In this document: positions 2,628 to 24,057 of the stretch, piece by piece
Layout: each line of letters opens with the position of its first letter
How positions within the stretch are numbered: position 1 is the first letter of the stretch
IMG/VR virus record: IMGVR_UViG_3300046715_000131
Location: 1 to 24,057 of that record
DNA length: 24,057 nucleotides
Strand: one strand, 5' to 3'
Source: a virus
Program-made: the position numbers and the translations under genes
Notes under the pieces: model-generated
Database searches by the model: none
The model's input: the letters and a program-made list of their open reading frames with translations, nothing else
Told to the model about the DNA's origin: nothing

Positions 2628-2874
2628 CGGACTCTCCACACACGGGGCGGCCCACGTCCGCTCCGGTCAAGTCGATGACGGTGCGGTGTGCGCGATCCGC
2701 TGAGGACCTTGCCCTCGAGCGCCGCCTCGGCGACGTGGGCGCCTGGTGCGGCTCGGGGATGGGCCAGCGCGTGCGGCCCGGCCCCTGATGGTAGGCGAGC
2801 GCGGTGGTTGGGCGCTAGGTCCTGTAGCACGTCGGCGTGGCGCGGGTGGTGGGTTCGGGGGAATGCGACGGGTT
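2628..2874. other. Gene-free region upstream of the late operon
   Basis: About 250 bp between divergent genes. On the minus strand TTGACC (2665-2670) could be a -35 for the regulator gene, but no convincing -10 follows at 17 bp. Open frames here lack codon bias and a ribosome binding site. A cos site might lie here, because HNH and terminase genes are often near cos, but no cos feature can be recognised from one window. Confidence 0.4.
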
Positions 2875-2896
2875 TTCGTGTCCGGATTGACACGAA
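2875..2896. promoter_or_regulatory. Candidate operator overlapping the late promoter -35 box
   Basis: A perfect 8-bp inverted repeat, TTCGTGTC (2875-2882) and GACACGAA (2889-2896), with a 6-bp spacer. Its right half covers most of the TTGACA box, so a dimeric regulator bound here would block RNA polymerase, or position it if it acts as an activator. No second full copy was seen in the window; a TTCGTGTC half-site lies inside the portal gene. Confidence 0.65.
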
Positions 2897-2915
2897 TGCT
2901 TGCGCCGCCCATTAT
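2887..2915 (+). promoter_or_regulatory. Near-consensus sigma-70 promoter driving the late operon
   Basis: TTGACA (2887-2892), a 17-bp spacer, and CATTAT (2910-2915). Transcription would start near 2922, leaving a leader of about 43 nt before the HNH gene at 2965. This is the best promoter in the window. The collinear, overlapping genes from 2965 to 5117 contain no other obvious promoter. Confidence 0.75.
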
Positions 2916-2964
2916 GACCACATTGGCGGCGTCTGCCCTGAAGACGGGGAGAGGGGCGGCCAGC

Positions 2965-3294
2965 ATGCCTGTGGAGCGCACCCGGCCGGCGTGGGAATTC
3001 TCGGACCGCCGCGAGCGGCTACCGCCTGATTGGCCGGAGCGGCGCGCGGAGGCGCATCGACGCAACCCGGAACACATCTGTCACTGGTGTGGGGATCCAG
3101 GGGGATCCGACCTCGATCACAAGCAGCGCGGGGATGATCACAGCCAGGACAACCTGGACTGGATCCACAACCGGCGTGACTACGAGGCCGGCAGGTCGAA
3201 GCGCAACTGCCACGGGCAGAAGACCGGCGCGGAGGGCGCGGCTGCGCGTACGCGGCTGAACCGTCCGGAGCCGGTGCATCCCGCGCTGCGCTGA
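2965..3294 (+). CDS. HNH endonuclease
   Basis: A 109-residue HNH nuclease. The zinc knuckle begins with C39-x2-C42 (ICHWCG). The catalytic core follows: D51-H52-K53 (the His acting as general base in this family), N63 (DNLDW), and the closing N81-C82-H83 with K86. Small HNH proteins of this kind are common beside actinophage terminases and in several phages are needed for cos cleavage and packaging; that role here is inferred from family and position. ATG 2965 was chosen over longer options because GGGGAGAGGGG lies about 8 nt upstream and the protein then has normal family length. It is the first gene after the late promoter and ends 10 nt before the next gene. Confidence 0.85.
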   Translation: MPVERTRPAWEFSDRRERLPPDWPERRAEAHRRNPEHICHWCGDPGGSDLDHKQRGDDHSQDNLDWIHNRRDYEAGRSKRNCHGQKTGAEGAAARTRLNRPEPVHPALR

Positions 3295-5393: not shown

Positions 5394-5433
5394 GCCCGTA
5401 ACGGGCCGCGGCCAGTTCCGCACCCGAAATGGG
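5394..5433 (+). promoter_or_regulatory. Two-part hairpin element before the small terminase gene (copy A)
   Basis: GCCCGTAACGGGC (5394-5406), 14 unconserved bases, then CACCCGAAATGGG (5421-5433). Both motifs can form tiny hairpins. The second overlaps the Shine-Dalgarno sequence (GGGAG, 5431-5435) and contains an in-frame ATG (5429). Copy B with identical spacing lies before the scaffold gene. It may control translation starts, or be a start-associated DNA site like those of cluster K mycobacteriophages. Confidence 0.65.
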
Positions 5434-5443
5434 AGTGATCGAC

Positions 5444-5980
5444 ATGCCTGGACCGGCGCCGCAGGAACGCAAGCACGGCCGGACACCGAACGCGTCCGGT
5501 GACTGGCGTGAGTACGACGATGTGCCTTTCGAGGGGGCGCCGCCGATGCCGGCCCCGCCCGGCCGGCGTAAGACCTGGCATCGGATGGCGGTCCGGACGT
5601 GGCAGACCGCGTCGGTGATGCCGCACTGCAAGGACTGGCGGGATGAGGACTGGCTGGCGCTTGAGGTGCTGATGTTAGAGGTGCACCGGTACTACAGCGC
5701 CACCGGTGAGGAGAGGCCGTCGACGGCGCAGATGACCGAGATCCGGCGGCAGCGTAACGCGCTGGGCATCGGGGAGCAGGGCCGCCGCGAGCAGAAGATC
5801 CGGTACAAACAGAAGGTCGAGCCGGGGTTGCCCGGCGACGGGCCGGCCGGGGCGCGTGAGGTGATCGACGACGGTCAGAGCAAGCCGGCGGGCAAGGTTG
5901 TCCCGCTGCGTGACCGCAAGAAGTCGATCACCGGGCGTGGTTCCGGTGGCCGGGGTCAGGGCGAGTCGGCGACCGGCTGA
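5444..5980 (+). CDS. Terminase small subunit
   Basis: A 178-residue DNA-recognition subunit of the packaging motor. The core, WHRMAVRTWQTASVMPHCKDWRDEDWLALEVLMLEVHRY (about 47-86) followed by ...TEIRRQRNALGIGEQGRREQKIRY (~100-125), matches the pattern of actinophage small terminases, in which a W-rich helical segment is followed by an ExRxR-type helix. The tail is basic and disordered. The large subunit starts 8 nt after its stop. ATG 5444 is favoured by GGGAG 8 nt upstream; ATG 5429 inside the hairpin element lacks a site but is possible. Codon 78 (5675-5677) is TTA, very rare in this window and dependent on the bldA tRNA in Streptomyces. Confidence 0.8.
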   Translation: MPGPAPQERKHGRTPNASGDWREYDDVPFEGAPPMPAPPGRRKTWHRMAVRTWQTASVMPHCKDWRDEDWLALEVLMLEVHRYYSATGEERPSTAQMTEIRRQRNALGIGEQGRREQKIRYKQKVEPGLPGDGPAGAREVIDDGQSKPAGKVVPLRDRKKSITGRGSGGRGQGESATG

Positions 5981-5988
5981 GGCCCGGC

Positions 5989-7751
5989 GTGCCCCGCCAG
6001 ATGATCCTCGCCCCCCATCATGACCAGCACCGTAGCCTCGGCTGGCTGGCCGTGTCCTGGCTGGAATTTTTCACCCGGCATGGGCCGGGTGACGTGCAGG
6101 GCCAGCCGGTCGTGCACGGCGAGGAGTACACCGAGTTCATCGTCAACTGCTACGCGGTCGGCGACCACGCCCGCAACAACCACCTCCTCTACGATTCGGC
6201 GTTTTTGTCCCGCCCTAAGGCGGGGCCCGCCGCTGCTTCGGTGGTGGCGGGCCCCGCCCGGGTAAGGGCTGCGACAAGTCGGGCCTGGCCGGACGGCTGG
6301 GCCTGTGGGAGGCGTTCGGGCCCTGCCGGTTCGCCGGCTGGGCACGCGGCGGCGAAACCTATACCGACCCGTACGGGTTCGGGTTCGAGTACGTGTACGA
6401 CGAGGGCGAGCCGATGGGCCGCCCCGTCGTCTCGCCATTCATCCGGATCAATGCCACGGAAGAGCACCAAACGGGCAATACGTTCAGGACTATCTATTTC
6501 AACCTGACGGATCGGGACTGCCCGCTCTACTACTGGCCCGGCCACGACGCCGCCAAGCGGGAAATCTTTCTCGGCGACGGCGGCGAAATCCGCTGCTCAA
6601 CGGCATCGGCGGCCAGCAAGGACGGCGGCCTCGAGACCTGGTCGTGCATGGATGAGTCTCACTTGTACGTAACGCCCGAATTGCGGGAGATGCGGGACGT
6701 CATCGTCGCGAACCTCTGGAAGCGCAAGCGGGGCGCCGGAACGTGGTTCTTGGAGACGACGACCATGTACGAGCCGGGTGAGAACTCGGCCGCGGAGGGC
6801 ACGTACAACGAGGCCCTGGCCCTGCTGGAGGGCCGCAAGAAAAGGGGCACCCATCGCCTGTATTTTGATCACAGGTGGGGGGACGTCCCGGACCTGGCCG
6901 ACGAGGAAGCGCTGCGCCTCGGGCTGCGCGACGCGTACGGCGACGCCCTGGCCTGGATGGACGAGGACTCGCTCGTCGACCAGGTGTACGACACCCGCAC
7001 GTCGGAGAACCGGGTCCGCCGGTACATGCTCAACGCGCAGACCAGCGCGAAAGACGCATGGATCCGGGCACACGAGTGGGACGCCTGCGGCGACCCGGCT
7101 AAGGAGATCCGGCACGGCGAGGCCGTCACAATCGGATTCGACGGTAGCTGGAACGACGATGCCACCTGCGTCGTCATCTGCTCGGTCGAAACCGGCCACA
7201 TCGAGCTCGCAGGGGCATGGGAAAAGCCGGAAGGGCCGGAAGGCGAAGACTGGCAGGTGCCGCGCGAGGAAGTCGACGCGTGCATCCACAACCTGCGCAA
7301 GACGTACCACGTTGTGGGCATGTATGCCGATCCGCCCCATTGGGACGATTATCTGGATCAATGGCATCGGGAGTTCGCGCACGAGATGTTGGTGCAGGTC
7401 AGCCCGAAACGGCCCCTCGAGTTCTGGACGAAAGCCCCGAACAAGATGGTGCCGGCGCTGGAACGGTTCCACACCGCGGTGCTGGAGCAGCGGCTGACGT
7501 TCACGCCGGCGCAGGACCGGGTCGGCCGGAAAGCCGAACTCGCGCTGACCTTGCGCAGGCACGCCCTTAATGCTCGCCGTGACCCCCGCCGGACGGGCTT
7601 GCACATCAGGAAGGAATACCCAAAAAGCCCCAAAAAGATCGACGGGGTGATGAGTGCCGTGCTCAGTTGGGAATGCCGCCAGGACGCCATCGCGGCGGGC
7701 GTACTCGACCAGATCGACGCGGCCTGGTTCATGCCGAAACGGCTGCGATGA
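5989..7751 (+). CDS. Terminase large subunit, interrupted by a 47-nt hairpin segment at Walker A
   Basis: ATPase-nuclease that pumps DNA into the prohead. From GTG 5989 the frame encodes 77 residues ending YDSAFLSRPK (6217-6219 = AAG). The following 47 nt (6220-6266) shift the frame. From 6267 another frame encodes 494 residues beginning GCDKSGLAGRLGLWEAFGPCRFAGWA. Joined at AAG, the product is 571 residues, normal for the family, and reads SRPKGCDKSG, the expected Walker A position (although Asp replaces the usual Gly before Lys). In the joined numbering other motifs are intact: Walker B MDE (D206-E207), coupling motif ETTT (240-243) and the RNase H-fold nuclease acidic residues D369 (FDGS), D432 (YADP) and D536 (KKID). 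Selection thus seems to maintain both halves. Bypass, frameshift, recent inactivation or assembly error are the alternatives. Confidence 0.8.
6209..6267 (+). other. Hairpin insertion with flanking TAAGG repeats: candidate translational bypass element
   Basis: The 47 nt at 6220-6266 lie between direct repeats TAAGG (6216-6220 and 6263-6267). Positions 6220-6231 pair perfectly with 6246-6257 (12 bp), and five more pairs with G-U wobbles continue to a C(UUCG)G tetraloop, giving a 38-nt hairpin with a 17-bp stem. A smaller competing hairpin (CCCGCC 6209-6214 with GGCGGG 6219-6224) puts the AAG codon 6217-6219 mostly in its loop. AAG recurs in the downstream reading frame at 6264-6266, so take-off and landing codons match. 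No stop codon follows the first AAG in the original frame. Confidence 0.6.
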
Positions 7752-8966: not shown

Positions 8967-8981
8967 CCCGACCAAACCTGG

Positions 8982-9012
8982 AAGGCCCGGACCTGCACCA
9001 GGTCCGGGCCTT
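8982..9012 (+). terminator. Strong 14-bp hairpin terminator
   Basis: AAGGCCCGGACCTG (8982-8995) and CAGGTCCGGGCCTT (8999-9012) pair perfectly around a 3-nt loop and are followed by T and CCC. It lies 16 nt after the stop at 8966 and just before the 9049 gene. It is one of the strongest terminators here; the sequence is symmetric enough to work in both directions. Confidence 0.75.
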
Positions 9013-9048
9013 TCCCGTCCCTGCTAACCGCGAGGGGAGGTGAAAGAG

Positions 9049-9409: not shown

Positions 9410-10318
9410 CTAGTAGAACAAGTCCCTCGGCATCCCGGCGCGGTCGGCGACCTCGTCGGTGACGTCACGTATCGCCTGGAGCATCGCGGCCAGGGCCGGG
9501 CTGATAGTCCCCTCGTGCACGACTTCGCCGGTCTCGGCGTCGACCAGCTGCCACGCGTCGGCGGGCAGGTCCGGGTCGGCGACGATCGGCACCTCACCCA
9601 GTTCGGCCATGACGCCGCTGGTCGCCTTCAGCCGGCGGGCGGCCGTGACGGCGATCGCGCCCAGGGCGTCCTCGCCGGCGGCGAGCCGCTGCGGCCGCGG
9701 CAGATCCATCTGATCGAGCTTGCGTTTCGCGGCGAGCATGTCTGCGCGCGGATCAGCGGGCCGCTCCTCCACCCAGCTGTTGAGGTAGAAGCGGTGGACG
9801 GCGTCGTGGGCGGTCGCCCACCCGCCCAGCAGGGTGTCGACGTCGATGAAGTCGTCGAACGGCGGCCCCCAGCGGTCGCGGCAGTTCTCCTCGAGTTCGC
9901 GGATCGTCGGCGCCGGGCCGCCGTCAGGGGTGAAGAACGGTGCCAGGGTGCCGGCCGGCGCGACGTAGCACCCTTCGCCGAGCTCGCGCCACGGGTCCGG
10001 CGGTTGCCAGGCCGACTTGCCGTTGCCTCTCGCACAGCTGACCCAGGTCACCGAATACGGCTCCGTCGTGGTGACCAGGTCCCAGCCGGCGAACGGGGTC
10101 CGCTGCCGTACCTGCTCGAACGTCAGCAGCGGCGGCATGCCCGTCTCCTGGGCGACCAGCCGCGCGTACCGGTCGGCGACCTGGTCGAGGTCGATCCGGG
10201 CGTCCGGCGACGGCCGGTCCGGGTAGCACACGAAGTCCCGGTCGAAGTCGGCGCGTTCGGCGTCGGTCATGCCCTCGGTGCACCGCTGGTAGTTCGCGCG
10301 GGAGATCAAATACGTCAT
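9410..10318 (-). CDS. Minus-strand cargo gene in the head operon, unknown function
   Basis: A 302-residue soluble protein on the strand opposite to its structural neighbours. It starts 30 nt from the portal start (divergent) and converges with the 9049 gene. No family is recognised. Features seen: an acidic N-terminal region, SCARGNGKSAWQPPDPW (~94-110), which superficially recalls a P-loop but lacks the first Gly/Ala and a following helix, a helical middle (ADMLAAKRKLDQMDLPRPQRL, ~194-214), a small beta hairpin (WQLVDAETGEVVHEGTIS, ~256-273) and a helical C-terminus. Composition matches its neighbours. No Shine-Dalgarno sequence is present; a TACGCT element 6 nt before ATG suggests a leaderless transcript. 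Orientation and independent promoter fit a moron gene. Confidence 0.75.
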   Translation of the reverse strand: MTYLISRANYQRCTEGMTDAERADFDRDFVCYPDRPSPDARIDLDQVADRYARLVAQETGMPPLLTFEQVRQRTPFAGWDLVTTTEPYSVTWVSCARGNGKSAWQPPDPWRELGEGCYVAPAGTLAPFFTPDGGPAPTIRELEENCRDRWGPPFDDFIDVDTLLGGWATAHDAVHRFYLNSWVEERPADPRADMLAAKRKLDQMDLPRPQRLAAGEDALGAIAVTAARRLKATSGVMAELGEVPIVADPDLPADAWQLVDAETGEVVHEGTISPALAAMLQAIRDVTDEVADRAGMPRDLFY

Positions 10319-19775: not shown

Positions 19776-20495
19776 GTGAAGACATGCGGAAGAAAAGGTT
19801 GCGGGCGACCCGTCAAGGCCCGTGATCTCTGCGCCAGCGACTACGCGGCCGCTCTGCGCAAAGGCGAGATCCAGCGGATCAGGTCATACCGGCGCCCCGC
19901 TCCGAAGGACGGCCAAGTTTGGTGCACGTCCTGCAAGCAGTACCGGCCCGAAGCGGACTTCCGCTGGAACCAGCCGCGGAACAACTGGGACCGCAGCTGC
20001 CGCGAATGCAAGAACGTCGCCTATCGCCGTTGGTACGACGGCGATGCCAAGGACCAGAAGCCGGATACGCCAGCAGATGTCGAGCGCAGGGCAAGGCGTG
20101 CTGCCTACATGCGAGAGTGGAGCAGCCGGAACCGGGACAAGGTACGGCTCAAGGCGACCCTCCGCAGTTGGGGCCTGACCGAGGAGCAGTACTTCGGTCT
20201 GTTCGAACGGCAGGATCATCGTTGTGCGGTCTGCCGTACTCCCCAACGCCCAGATCGTGCTTTGGCCATCGACCATTGCCACGAGACCGGTCGCATCCGT
20301 GGCCTCTGCTGCCAGGACTGCAACCTAGGGATGGGTCAGTTCGCCGACGACCCGGACCTGCTCGAAGCAGCCGCTCGATACCTGCGAGCTGGCGGCGTCG
20401 TACATGACGAAGAACTACGGGTAACGGTGGACAGCCACCGAGTCCGCCGCACCGCGATACGCGATGCCGAGCGGGCGCGGGTCATAGAGGAGTGA
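19776..20495 (+). CDS. Recombination endonuclease VII family HNH nuclease (free-standing)
   Basis: A 239-residue protein. Two zinc-knuckle-like parts lie at the N-terminus (C4, C9, C18; then C50-x2-C53 and C75-x2-C78). The C-terminal domain, about 150-200, is endonuclease VII (Pfam PF02945): C-AVC, IDHCHETGRIRGLCCQDCNLGMGQF, then the DLLEAAARYL helix. This family resolves branched DNA in T4, and related stand-alone copies behave as homing-like elements in many phages. Composition is less GC-biased than its neighbours, and it has its own leaderless promoter between structural genes, which suggests a mobile insertion. Its last codons carry the GAGGAG ribosome binding site of the next gene. Confidence 0.85.
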   Translation: MKTCGRKGCGRPVKARDLCASDYAAALRKGEIQRIRSYRRPAPKDGQVWCTSCKQYRPEADFRWNQPRNNWDRSCRECKNVAYRRWYDGDAKDQKPDTPADVERRARRAAYMREWSSRNRDKVRLKATLRSWGLTEEQYFGLFERQDHRCAVCRTPQRPDRALAIDHCHETGRIRGLCCQDCNLGMGQFADDPDLLEAAARYLRAGGVVHDEELRVTVDSHRVRRTAIRDAERARVIEE

Positions 20496-22599: not shown

Positions 22600-24057
22600 G
22601 TGACGATCGCCATTCGCGGCACAACACCCCTGGTCGTCACCGACGGCACCGGGGCGGCCACGATCTCGGGGACGTTGACCGGCACACGGCAGCCGCAGTC
22701 CGGCGACGTGCTGGTGATCTTCCACGGGAACAACTACTTCACCCTGTCGGCCATGTCGACACCGACGGTCGGCGGATCGTCGACGGGCGTGACCTCGCTC
22801 GCGACCGCCGACAACGGCACCAGCAACGCACACACGAAAGCGTGGTACTACAAGGTCACCTCGACCGGTGACGTGACCGTCGCCGCGAGCGAGACGGGCC
22901 TGGCGGACGAGGAGAAGTGCCTGGTCGTCTACGTCCTGTCGGGCGTGGACACCGCGGTCACCGACGGCACACCGGCCGGCGCCAACGGGGCCGCGACGAC
23001 CAGCCCGACCGCGCCCGCGGTCACCACGACGCAGACCAACTCCTTCCTGATCTGCCACACCAACTCCGGCGGCAGCAACAGCGCCGGAACGTACACACCG
23101 CCGTCCGGCATGACCGAGCAGTACGACACGGCCGTCAGCGGCGCGCTGTCCTGCTCGGGTGCGACGTTGCAGCTGTCCGCGTCCGGGTCCACCGGGACCA
23201 AGGCGTTCACCAGCCAGTTCTCGCAGCCGTACACGGCGGTCACCGTCGCGCTCAAAACCGCGTCGAGCGGCTCCAACTTCACCGCGACGGTGAACGACAC
23301 GGCCGGGCTGACCGACACGGCTACGGCGGCGTCCGGGTTCACCCGGTCGGTGAACGATACGGCCGGGCTGACCGACACGGCGGCGGCCGGCGTCGGCTAC
23401 GGGCAGGCGGTCACCGACACGGTGGGCCTGGTTGACGCGGCCACCAGCGCGGCCGCGTTCGGCCGCACGGTCGACGATCCGGCCGGGCTCACCGACACGG
23501 CGAGCACGGCGGCCGCGTTCGCGCGGACCGTCGACGACCAGGTCGGGCTGGCCGACACCGCGGTGGCCGGCGTCGGCTACGGGCAGGCGGTCACCGACTC
23601 GGCCGGGCTGACCGACGCGACCGCGCTCGGGTTCGGGCACATCGTCGACGACTCGGTCGGGCTCACCGACGCGGCCAGCGCGGCCGCCGCGTTCGCGCGG
23701 ACCGTCGACGACCAGGTCGGGCTGGCCGACACCGCGAGCTCGGCGGCGGCGTTCGCACGCACGGTCGACGACCAGGTTGGGCTGGCCGATGCTGCGGGCA
23801 CGGCGATCGCGTCCGGGTACACCGCGACAGTCGACGACCAGGTCGGGCTCACCGACACCGCCAGCACGGCGGCCGGGTTCGCCCGGGCGGTGACCGACAC
23901 GGCCGGGCTGACCGACACCGCGTCCGCGGCGGCGGCGTTCGCGCGCACGGTCGACGATGTGGCCGGCCTGGCCGATGACGCGTCGACGAGCCTGAACGCT
24001 GGCGGGTCCGCGTACACGAGGACCGTCGACGACCAGGTCGGGCTGTCGGATGCCGGC
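22600..24057 (+). CDS. Repeat-rich virion surface protein, incomplete at the right edge
   Basis: At least 486 codons from GTG 22600 without a stop, so the gene continues past the window. Residues 1-223 are a beta-sandwich region (SGDVLVIFHGNNYFTL, KCLVVYVLSGVD, TNSFLICHTNSGG, YTAVTVALKTASSG). From about residue 224 at least 13 copies of a ~20-residue unit follow (see repeat). A fibre or capsid/tail surface role is inferred from context and repeat architecture. GGGAAGCGGGG lies upstream. Because the frame is open it is not bounded on the right, and domains there are unknown. Confidence 0.75.
   Translation, partial: MTIAIRGTTPLVVTDGTGAATISGTLTGTRQPQSGDVLVIFHGNNYFTLSAMSTPTVGGSSTGVTSLATADNGTSNAHTKAWYYKVTSTGDVTVAASETGLADEEKCLVVYVLSGVDTAVTDGTPAGANGAATTSPTAPAVTTTQTNSFLICHTNSGGSNSAGTYTPPSGMTEQYDTAVSGALSCSGATLQLSASGSTGTKAFTSQFSQPYTAVTVALKTASSGSNFTATVNDTAGLTDTATAASGFTRSVNDTAGLTDTAAAGVGYGQAVTDTVGLVDAATSAAAFGRTVDDPAGLTDTASTAAAFARTVDDQVGLADTAVAGVGYGQAVTDSAGLTDATALGFGHIVDDSVGLTDAASAAAAFARTVDDQVGLADTASSAAAFARTVDDQVGLADAAGTAIASGYTATVDDQVGLTDTASTAAGFARAVTDTAGLTDTASAAAAFARTVDDVAGLADDASTSLNAGGSAYTRTVDDQVGLSDAG
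23271..24057 (+). repeat. Tandem ~60-bp repeats encoding V(D/N/T)DxxGLxDxA units
   Basis: At least 13 tandem units of about 60 bp, each coding RTVDDQVGLADTASSAAAF-like sequence. Conserved positions are V-x-D, G-L and the following D-x-A; the linker alternates mainly between AAAFA and GVGYG types. Some units are nearly identical at DNA level, including the shared RTVDDQVGLADTA-coding stretch near 23521 and 23697, suggesting recent duplication or gene conversion. The array runs off the right edge. Confidence 0.9.

Follow-up and report, generated by a model that had tools for sequence, protein, structure and literature searches.

A hairpin-forming 47-nt gap at the Walker A motif of a viral large terminase gene is probably skipped by translating ribosomes

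How can one large terminase subunit (TerL) be produced from a gene whose reading frame breaks inside the P-loop? This question is raised by positions 1 to 24,057 of IMG/VR record IMGVR_UViG_3300046715_000131, the 24,057-nt stretch of DNA analysed here and referred to as the window. A terminase small subunit gene (5429-5980, plus strand, as are all features of this locus; Pfam Terminase_7, E 3.6e-12) is followed by the TerL gene, whose 5' coding part, taken from its open reading frame and translation, runs for 77 codons from a GTG start at 5989 to an AAG codon (5989-6219) and reads ...YDSAFLSRPK in frame 1. This AAG (Lys, 6217-6219), the final codon ahead of the gap, is the proposed take-off codon. 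The rest of the P-loop, GCDKSG, resumes in another frame at GGC 6267, and the 3' coding part (6267-7751; 494 codons plus a stop at 7749-7751) contains in addition Walker B and the nuclease, matching phrog_9 at E 1.2e-40 and also TerL_nuclease. Comparison with related TerLs delimits the intervening 47-nt coding gap (6220-6266), which consists of a hairpin and a 9-nt 3' spacer (CCGGGTAAG). Copies of TAAGG lie at 6216-6220 and 6263-6267, and an AAG in the downstream frame (6264-6266) matches the take-off codon and is the proposed landing codon. Joined, the 77 and 494 codons give a 571-residue protein containing SRPKGCDKSG. A first-pass annotation of this DNA had described the frames, the gap, the repeats, the second AAG and the joined length, and all of these hold. 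Its statement that no stop codon follows take-off was likewise correct: the next codon is GCG, frame 1 stays open across the insert, and a 172-aa product ending at 6505-6507 is predicted. It had also named a second complete terminase gene as an outcome that would refute bypassing; only one TerL was found per record, with none extra in the window record. No phage-encoded tRNA was found in the window.

The 17-bp stem with a UUCG loop reported earlier was reproduced by RNAfold, with the 5' arm at 6220-6236, the tetraloop at 6237-6240 and the 3' arm at 6241-6257. The flanking pair G6219-C6258 extends the stem to 18 bp and moves its start into the take-off codon, to the final base of AAG. The stem strength is about -39 kcal/mol, the fold of the insert region has a z of -3.25 relative to shuffles, and the hairpin is the longest small-loop stem anywhere in the window; the longest stems in 92 insert-free TerL genes are mostly 7-14 bp (17 in one case). 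A Rfam search with the 47-nt gap matched no family, and neither a splicing domain nor an Rfam-recognised ribozyme is present in it. The hairpin was considered as a mobile repeat and this was rejected, there being no second copy of its sequence in the window or in the records of two relatives described below (L003 and L006). An outer helix between the codons for FLSRP and those for GCDKSG was also set aside as a signal, since it is not specific to insert-bearing genes (ranks 30, 1, 27 and 30 against 78 insert-free genes). Elsewhere in the window, an intergenic 16-bp stem with a 3-nt loop and no T-run (8980-9014) is probably a terminator, a 302-aa open frame of unknown family lies on the minus strand opposite to the head genes (9410-10318), 15-nt repeats of the TTGCGGGTGGTCGCC type (243-568) encode ATTRK repeats on the minus strand, and a gene truncated at the end of the window (22600-24057) contains repeats of about 20 residues (xDDQVGLTDTAxx), mostly at 60-nt spacing.

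In about 90 other TerLs the motif SRPKG[C/A/S/T...][D/N]KSG is unbroken and insert-free, as in that of Streptomyces phage Samy (55% identical), and the joined window protein matches these intact homologues; the comparison with close terminases that had been recommended thus favours the bypass reading. The same insertion was to be looked for in related phages as well, and three relatives carry inserts at exactly the same codon boundary. L003 (IMGVR_UViG_3300028802_000087; 72% identity) has 47 nt with a stem homologous to that of the window and a UGAC loop; L006 (IMGVR_UViG_3300028578_000003; 78% identity) carries 50 nt that form a 20-bp stem of unrelated sequence, capped by a GCAA loop; and L157 (IMGVR_UViG_2518285558_000002) has 47 nt with a third unrelated stem and a UUCC loop. 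The L006 and L157 stems are unrelated in sequence, yet their first nucleotide has the same position. The 5' TerL part of the window is 79-85% identical to those of the insert-bearing relatives. The DNA of a further record, L154 (record number _2518285559_), is the same as that of L157, and by their numbers both records look like IMG isolate genomes; a search for the host of L157 gave no match, at the thresholds set, among 395 Actinomycetes genomes and 35 genomes of the family of L105. In the collection, one scan for near-identical stems gave no match and a looser stem pattern matched only L003, both scans being pattern-based, such that an absence of matches does not mean absence elsewhere. Matches to gap patterns other than L003, L006, L154 and L157 (18 and 41) were discarded as they are not terminases. 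Misassembly can create perfect palindromes, and an assembly error was one of the two fall-back explanations offered initially; with independent samples and records sharing the site, their stems homologous, covarying or unrelated, and with the L157 version present in two IMG records with isolate-type numbers, a sequencing or assembly artefact has a negligible probability.

In a tree built on the C-terminal part of TerL, with the insert excluded, the window, L003, L006 and L157 form one clade (SH-aLRT 100), of four distinct members, all but one metagenomic. Since every known member of the clade carries the insert, it was most likely already present in the clade ancestor. Within the clade the hairpin sequences appear to have turned over, with site, structure and approximate length retained. 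The two homologous stems differ at three positions, all pairings being kept: in the 3' arm's two altered pairs, the G-C pair at 6222/6255 of the window is C-G in L003, a compensatory double change, and the C-G pair at 6231/6246 is U-G. Random placement of three changes retains all pairs in 1.4% of trials (p 0.014), a covariation signal based on few changes. The coding sequence on either side is constrained, with dN of 0.11-0.18 and dS of 0.76-1.33 over the 77 codons upstream of the gap and dN of 0.08-0.16 and dS of 0.52-1.25 over the first 42 codons downstream, where dN/dS is well below 1, pointing to purifying selection on both flanks, each in its own frame. These values bear on the other initial fall-back, a disabling palindromic insertion. 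On that view the carriers would be defective prophages or satellites, and the insert perhaps a scar left by repair at a site of homing. Repair following cleavage by a homing endonuclease could put lesions at Walker motifs, and sporadic breaks at Walker B do exist (L307 and L292, each with intact sisters). The insert, however, is found throughout a clade whose synonymous divergence is near 1 and whose TerL protein is constrained (dN 0.08-0.18), the stems covary or are wholly different across separate samples, and no further break is found in any of the four insert-bearing TerL genes, making a broken TerL improbable.

The same downstream constraint speaks to the possibility of two proteins, one an N-terminal piece of 172 aa and the other a C-terminal piece translated from an internal start, acting together or in trans. 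None of the four clade members has an ATG, GTG or TTG in its first 42 resumed codons; therefore initiation downstream cannot explain the conservation there. Candidate internal starts do lie in open frames (GTG 6393, or an ATG at downstream codon 50), the annotators of the Streptomyces phage GreenWeasel called three ORFs in its terminase region (two hypothetical proteins and a terminase), and ATPase and nuclease are encoded by separate ORFs in more distant TerLs. Nevertheless, the break in the window falls within the P-loop, purifying selection acts in the downstream frame on the 42 codons ahead of the first internal start, and no start position is common to the clade, so that we regard a two-protein arrangement as very unlikely. 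Moreover, the L157 TerL contains an in-frame 138-aa mini-intein at MDE^THLY, downstream of the gap, consistent with a C-terminal part that is translated and functional. The split layout itself was observed in L148, L150, L151, L152 and L153, where the ATPase and nuclease frames separate at the interdomain linker, with additional stops in the L150 and L151 TerLs; the frame breaks of L148 and L150-L153 were accordingly removed from the list of candidate hairpins.

Hairpin inserts were found at a second site. L069 (IMGVR_UViG_3300009979_000034) has a 51-nt hairpin insert with an in-frame TAA and L234 (IMGVR_UViG_3300003323_001332) a 61-nt hairpin insert with a TGA, both just before Walker B at ETF^VVFDE, with the P-loop intact in both. 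The two TerLs are 86% identical, their stems differ by a compensatory change of A-T to C-G, and together they form the sister group of the clade with the Walker A insert (support of 100 for the pair and 89 for the join). Across the remaining TerLs surveyed, breaks within the body of the ATPase domain occur only in L307 (10 nt) and L292 (1 nt), both at Walker B, and were set aside as sporadic because sister sequences are intact. The L307 break is a 10-nt TAGATGGGTC at 2491-2500, complementary to a downstream ACCCATCT, and that of L292 is one additional T within a T-run at about 670. An apparent gap in the Streptomyces kebangsaanensis TerL (L113) was likewise dismissed, being a run of 22 N just ahead of Walker B (6343-6364), which may reflect masking, or a strong hairpin that left a gap in the assembly.

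The lengths of these inserts are informative with respect to programmed -1 frameshifting, or read-through after translation of the hairpin, either of which would yield TerL with about 16 additional residues. All Walker A gaps are 3n+2 long and leave frame 1 open, as this would require; the Walker B gaps, however, are 3n and 3n+1 and contain stops, and since 51 and 61 nt leave different remainders on division by 3, one fixed frameshift or read-through could not fit both. The frame phase of the hairpin inserts is thus not conserved. Additionally, L157 has a TAG immediately ahead of its resumed GGC and L006 a TGA one codon ahead of its last gap codon, and therefore a frameshift within the gap cannot yield the protein in these relatives. 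The extra residues would furthermore fall inside the P-loop, and a classical slippery heptamer was not seen in the sequence. We consider frameshifting or read-through extremely improbable.

Taken together, inserts at one boundary, a single TerL per record and purifying selection in the downstream frame make the bypass interpretation put forward in the first-pass annotation the best-supported reading: the 47 nt are probably a non-coding gap that translating ribosomes skip, i.e., programmed translational bypassing. A ribosome would stall with peptidyl-tRNA-Lys on AAG 6217-6219 and the stem at or in the A site; the anticodon would then release, the ribosome would cross the folded 47 nt and re-pair on AAG 6264-6266, after which decoding of the P-loop would resume at GGC. 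Some ribosomes would stay in frame 1 and yield the 172-aa product. In the relatives, the same step could use tRNA-Gly, from GGC to GGC in L006 and from GGU to GGC in L157. In all five independent gaps tested, counting two of phage phiHau3 discussed below, the take-off and landing codons are readable by one tRNA with exact restoration of the native protein (AAG/AAG in the window, GGC/GGC in L006, GGT/GGC in L157, and GGC/GGT and CGG/CGG in phiHau3). The chance of such a restoration in shuffled gaps is 0.02-0.11 each, the product for the three hairpins being about 1e-3 if they are independent. Matching of AAG to AAG, as originally noted, is present in the window, and also in L003, but is not a general rule, L006 and L157 needing the glycine codons instead. 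Short direct repeats created by the insertion could also have produced matched codons as a side effect. Matching is less good at Walker B, where GAA/GAG would serve L234 with length unchanged and the options in L069 are limited to ACC/ACA, with one extra residue, or TTT/GTC. Ribosome sliding in T4 is efficient up to 56 nt (PMC11194080); gaps of 47-51 nt fall inside this range and the 61 nt of L234 lie beyond it. A KKYK sequence is absent from the 77-aa upstream peptide of the window, another nascent signal being possible, and no gap examined has a Shine-Dalgarno-like motif (GGAG, GAGG or AGGA) before the landing codon.

The main rival to bypassing is excision at the RNA or DNA level, in which the hairpin would be removed either from the transcript, as a mini-intron or by cutting and ligation, or from replicating DNA by deletion between short repeats. 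Its exact removal restores the protein in the window, L003, L006 and L157, short repeats flank the gaps (AAGG in the window, AGGG in L157 and GGC in L006), and the observed pattern, in which structure, site and protein are kept but sequence and phase are not, is as compatible with excision as with bypassing. On the other hand, the gap gave no Rfam match, the CCT repeat at Walker B is one base out of register, such that a deletion directed by the repeat would not restore the frame there, and all six insert-bearing contigs keep the insert, with no excised copy seen. We know of no bacterial RNA intron this short, which also counts against excision, and overall we judge it unlikely.

Proposed bypassing in a terminase gene has a precedent in cultured phages. 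In a review (PMC5009743), the terminase of the Streptomyces phage phiHau3 is described as a probable case of bypassing at a UUA codon after KGWG. KGWG is the P-loop of phiHau3, so the proposed gap sits in Walker A. In phiHau3, GreenWeasel and BroPlease we find a 10-nt insert, TTACTCCGGT or TTACCCCGGT, between the GGC and AAG of KGWG^KD, with Yosif, phiScoe2 and Omar as insert-free references. A second 10-nt insert, TCTTTAACGG, is located before Walker B in phiHau3 and GreenWeasel, not in BroPlease; it holds an in-frame UUA, is flanked on both sides by CGG, and is not mentioned in the portion of PMC5009743 available. At this second site, phiHau3 (L310, 2329-3995) and GreenWeasel (L312) read CGG TCTTTAACGG TCC, with a hairpin of CCGGGCCC/GGGCCCGG just upstream. 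Because all three are deposited phages with a named host, TerL genes broken at Walker motifs are evidently compatible with growth, and gaps in the same motif in three isolated phages further disfavor a broken TerL as the explanation for the window. The suggestion that the window could hold a second phage-borne bypass system is consequently supported as regards bypassing but not as regards rank, phiHau3 having been proposed earlier as a candidate after T4 (PMC5009743).

Why gaps should arise at these positions may be related to inteins. Mycobacteriophage TerL inteins are located in the P-loop, commonly, and at Walker B (PMC5050341), and in the TerL family of the window inteins occur at (F/M)DE^THL in L157, L112 and JonJames (L232); gaps and TerL inteins have motifs in common, although not exact positions. 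The inteins at (F/M)DE^THL start with Ala, the mini-intein of L157 being located at 1225-1638, and those of L112 and JonJames, which are longer, probably carry a homing endonuclease domain. The window itself has genes for an endonuclease VII homologue (19776-20495) and an HNH endonuclease (2746-3294), possibly free-standing homing or branch-cutting nucleases. Given that the gaps lie at intein-prone motifs, a skipped hairpin may protect the gene by disrupting a homing site, by analogy with T4 gene 60, for which protection against homing, or a link to a homing endonuclease, has been suggested (PMC5009743). Our tentative and rather doubtful extension of these findings is that 47-61-nt hairpins at homing-prone Walker A and B codons of actinophage terminases form a distinct class, preserved in structure and not in sequence, which ribosomes skip or mini-splicing removes, and which might serve as intein shields or as a brake on terminase production.

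If the bypass reading is true, four versions at one boundary, the second site of the sister clade and the cultured phages with short gaps constitute a natural series, which could show which of stem, spacer and matched codon bypassing needs when the aids of gene 60 are lacking, and the coincidence with intein sites suggests why such gaps arise. Gene callers split such terminases into "hypothetical protein" pieces, and more cases have probably been overlooked.

To our knowledge, phage T4 is the only bacterial virus in which bypassing is firmly established, and its gene 60 is the one well-studied case of long-gap bypassing in bacteria and their viruses. The window resembles gene 60 in that one protein is encoded in two parts, out of frame with each other and about 50 nt apart (50 nt in gene 60), and in its identical take-off and landing codons and stem-loop at take-off (PMC5009743; PMC11194080). 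It differs in its location in a terminase P-loop, its other host group, and the lack of a take-off stop and of KKYK; its stem is far longer and stronger than the small gene-60 element, and, unlike in gene 60, hairpin and matched codon turn over within the clade. The window gap thus appears to share the outline of gene 60 but should not be filed as a member of the gene-60 type, because defining features are missing. The byp elements of Magnusiomyces capitatus mitochondria are short blocks skipped in translation, with codon matching that is not always perfect (PMC5009743). The window has a hairpin block that would be skipped, but byp comprises 81 inserts over most genes of one mitochondrial genome, whereas the window type is that of a bacterial virus, with one site per terminase and no spread seen within the record. 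Inteins of TerL share with the gaps the Walker A and Walker B motifs of actinophage TerL, whereas the gaps are 47-61 nt long, have no protein-splicing domain, and are out of frame or contain stops. The phiHau3-type (Hautrevirus) gaps differ from that of the window in their insertion point within the motif, in being 10 nt long with a UUA as opposed to 47-61-nt hairpins without one, and in residing in TerLs only distantly related to it; like the window gap, they are found in a terminase, at the Walker A motif, with take-off and landing on the same tRNA, the GGC/GGU pair of phiHau3 being that of L157 reversed.
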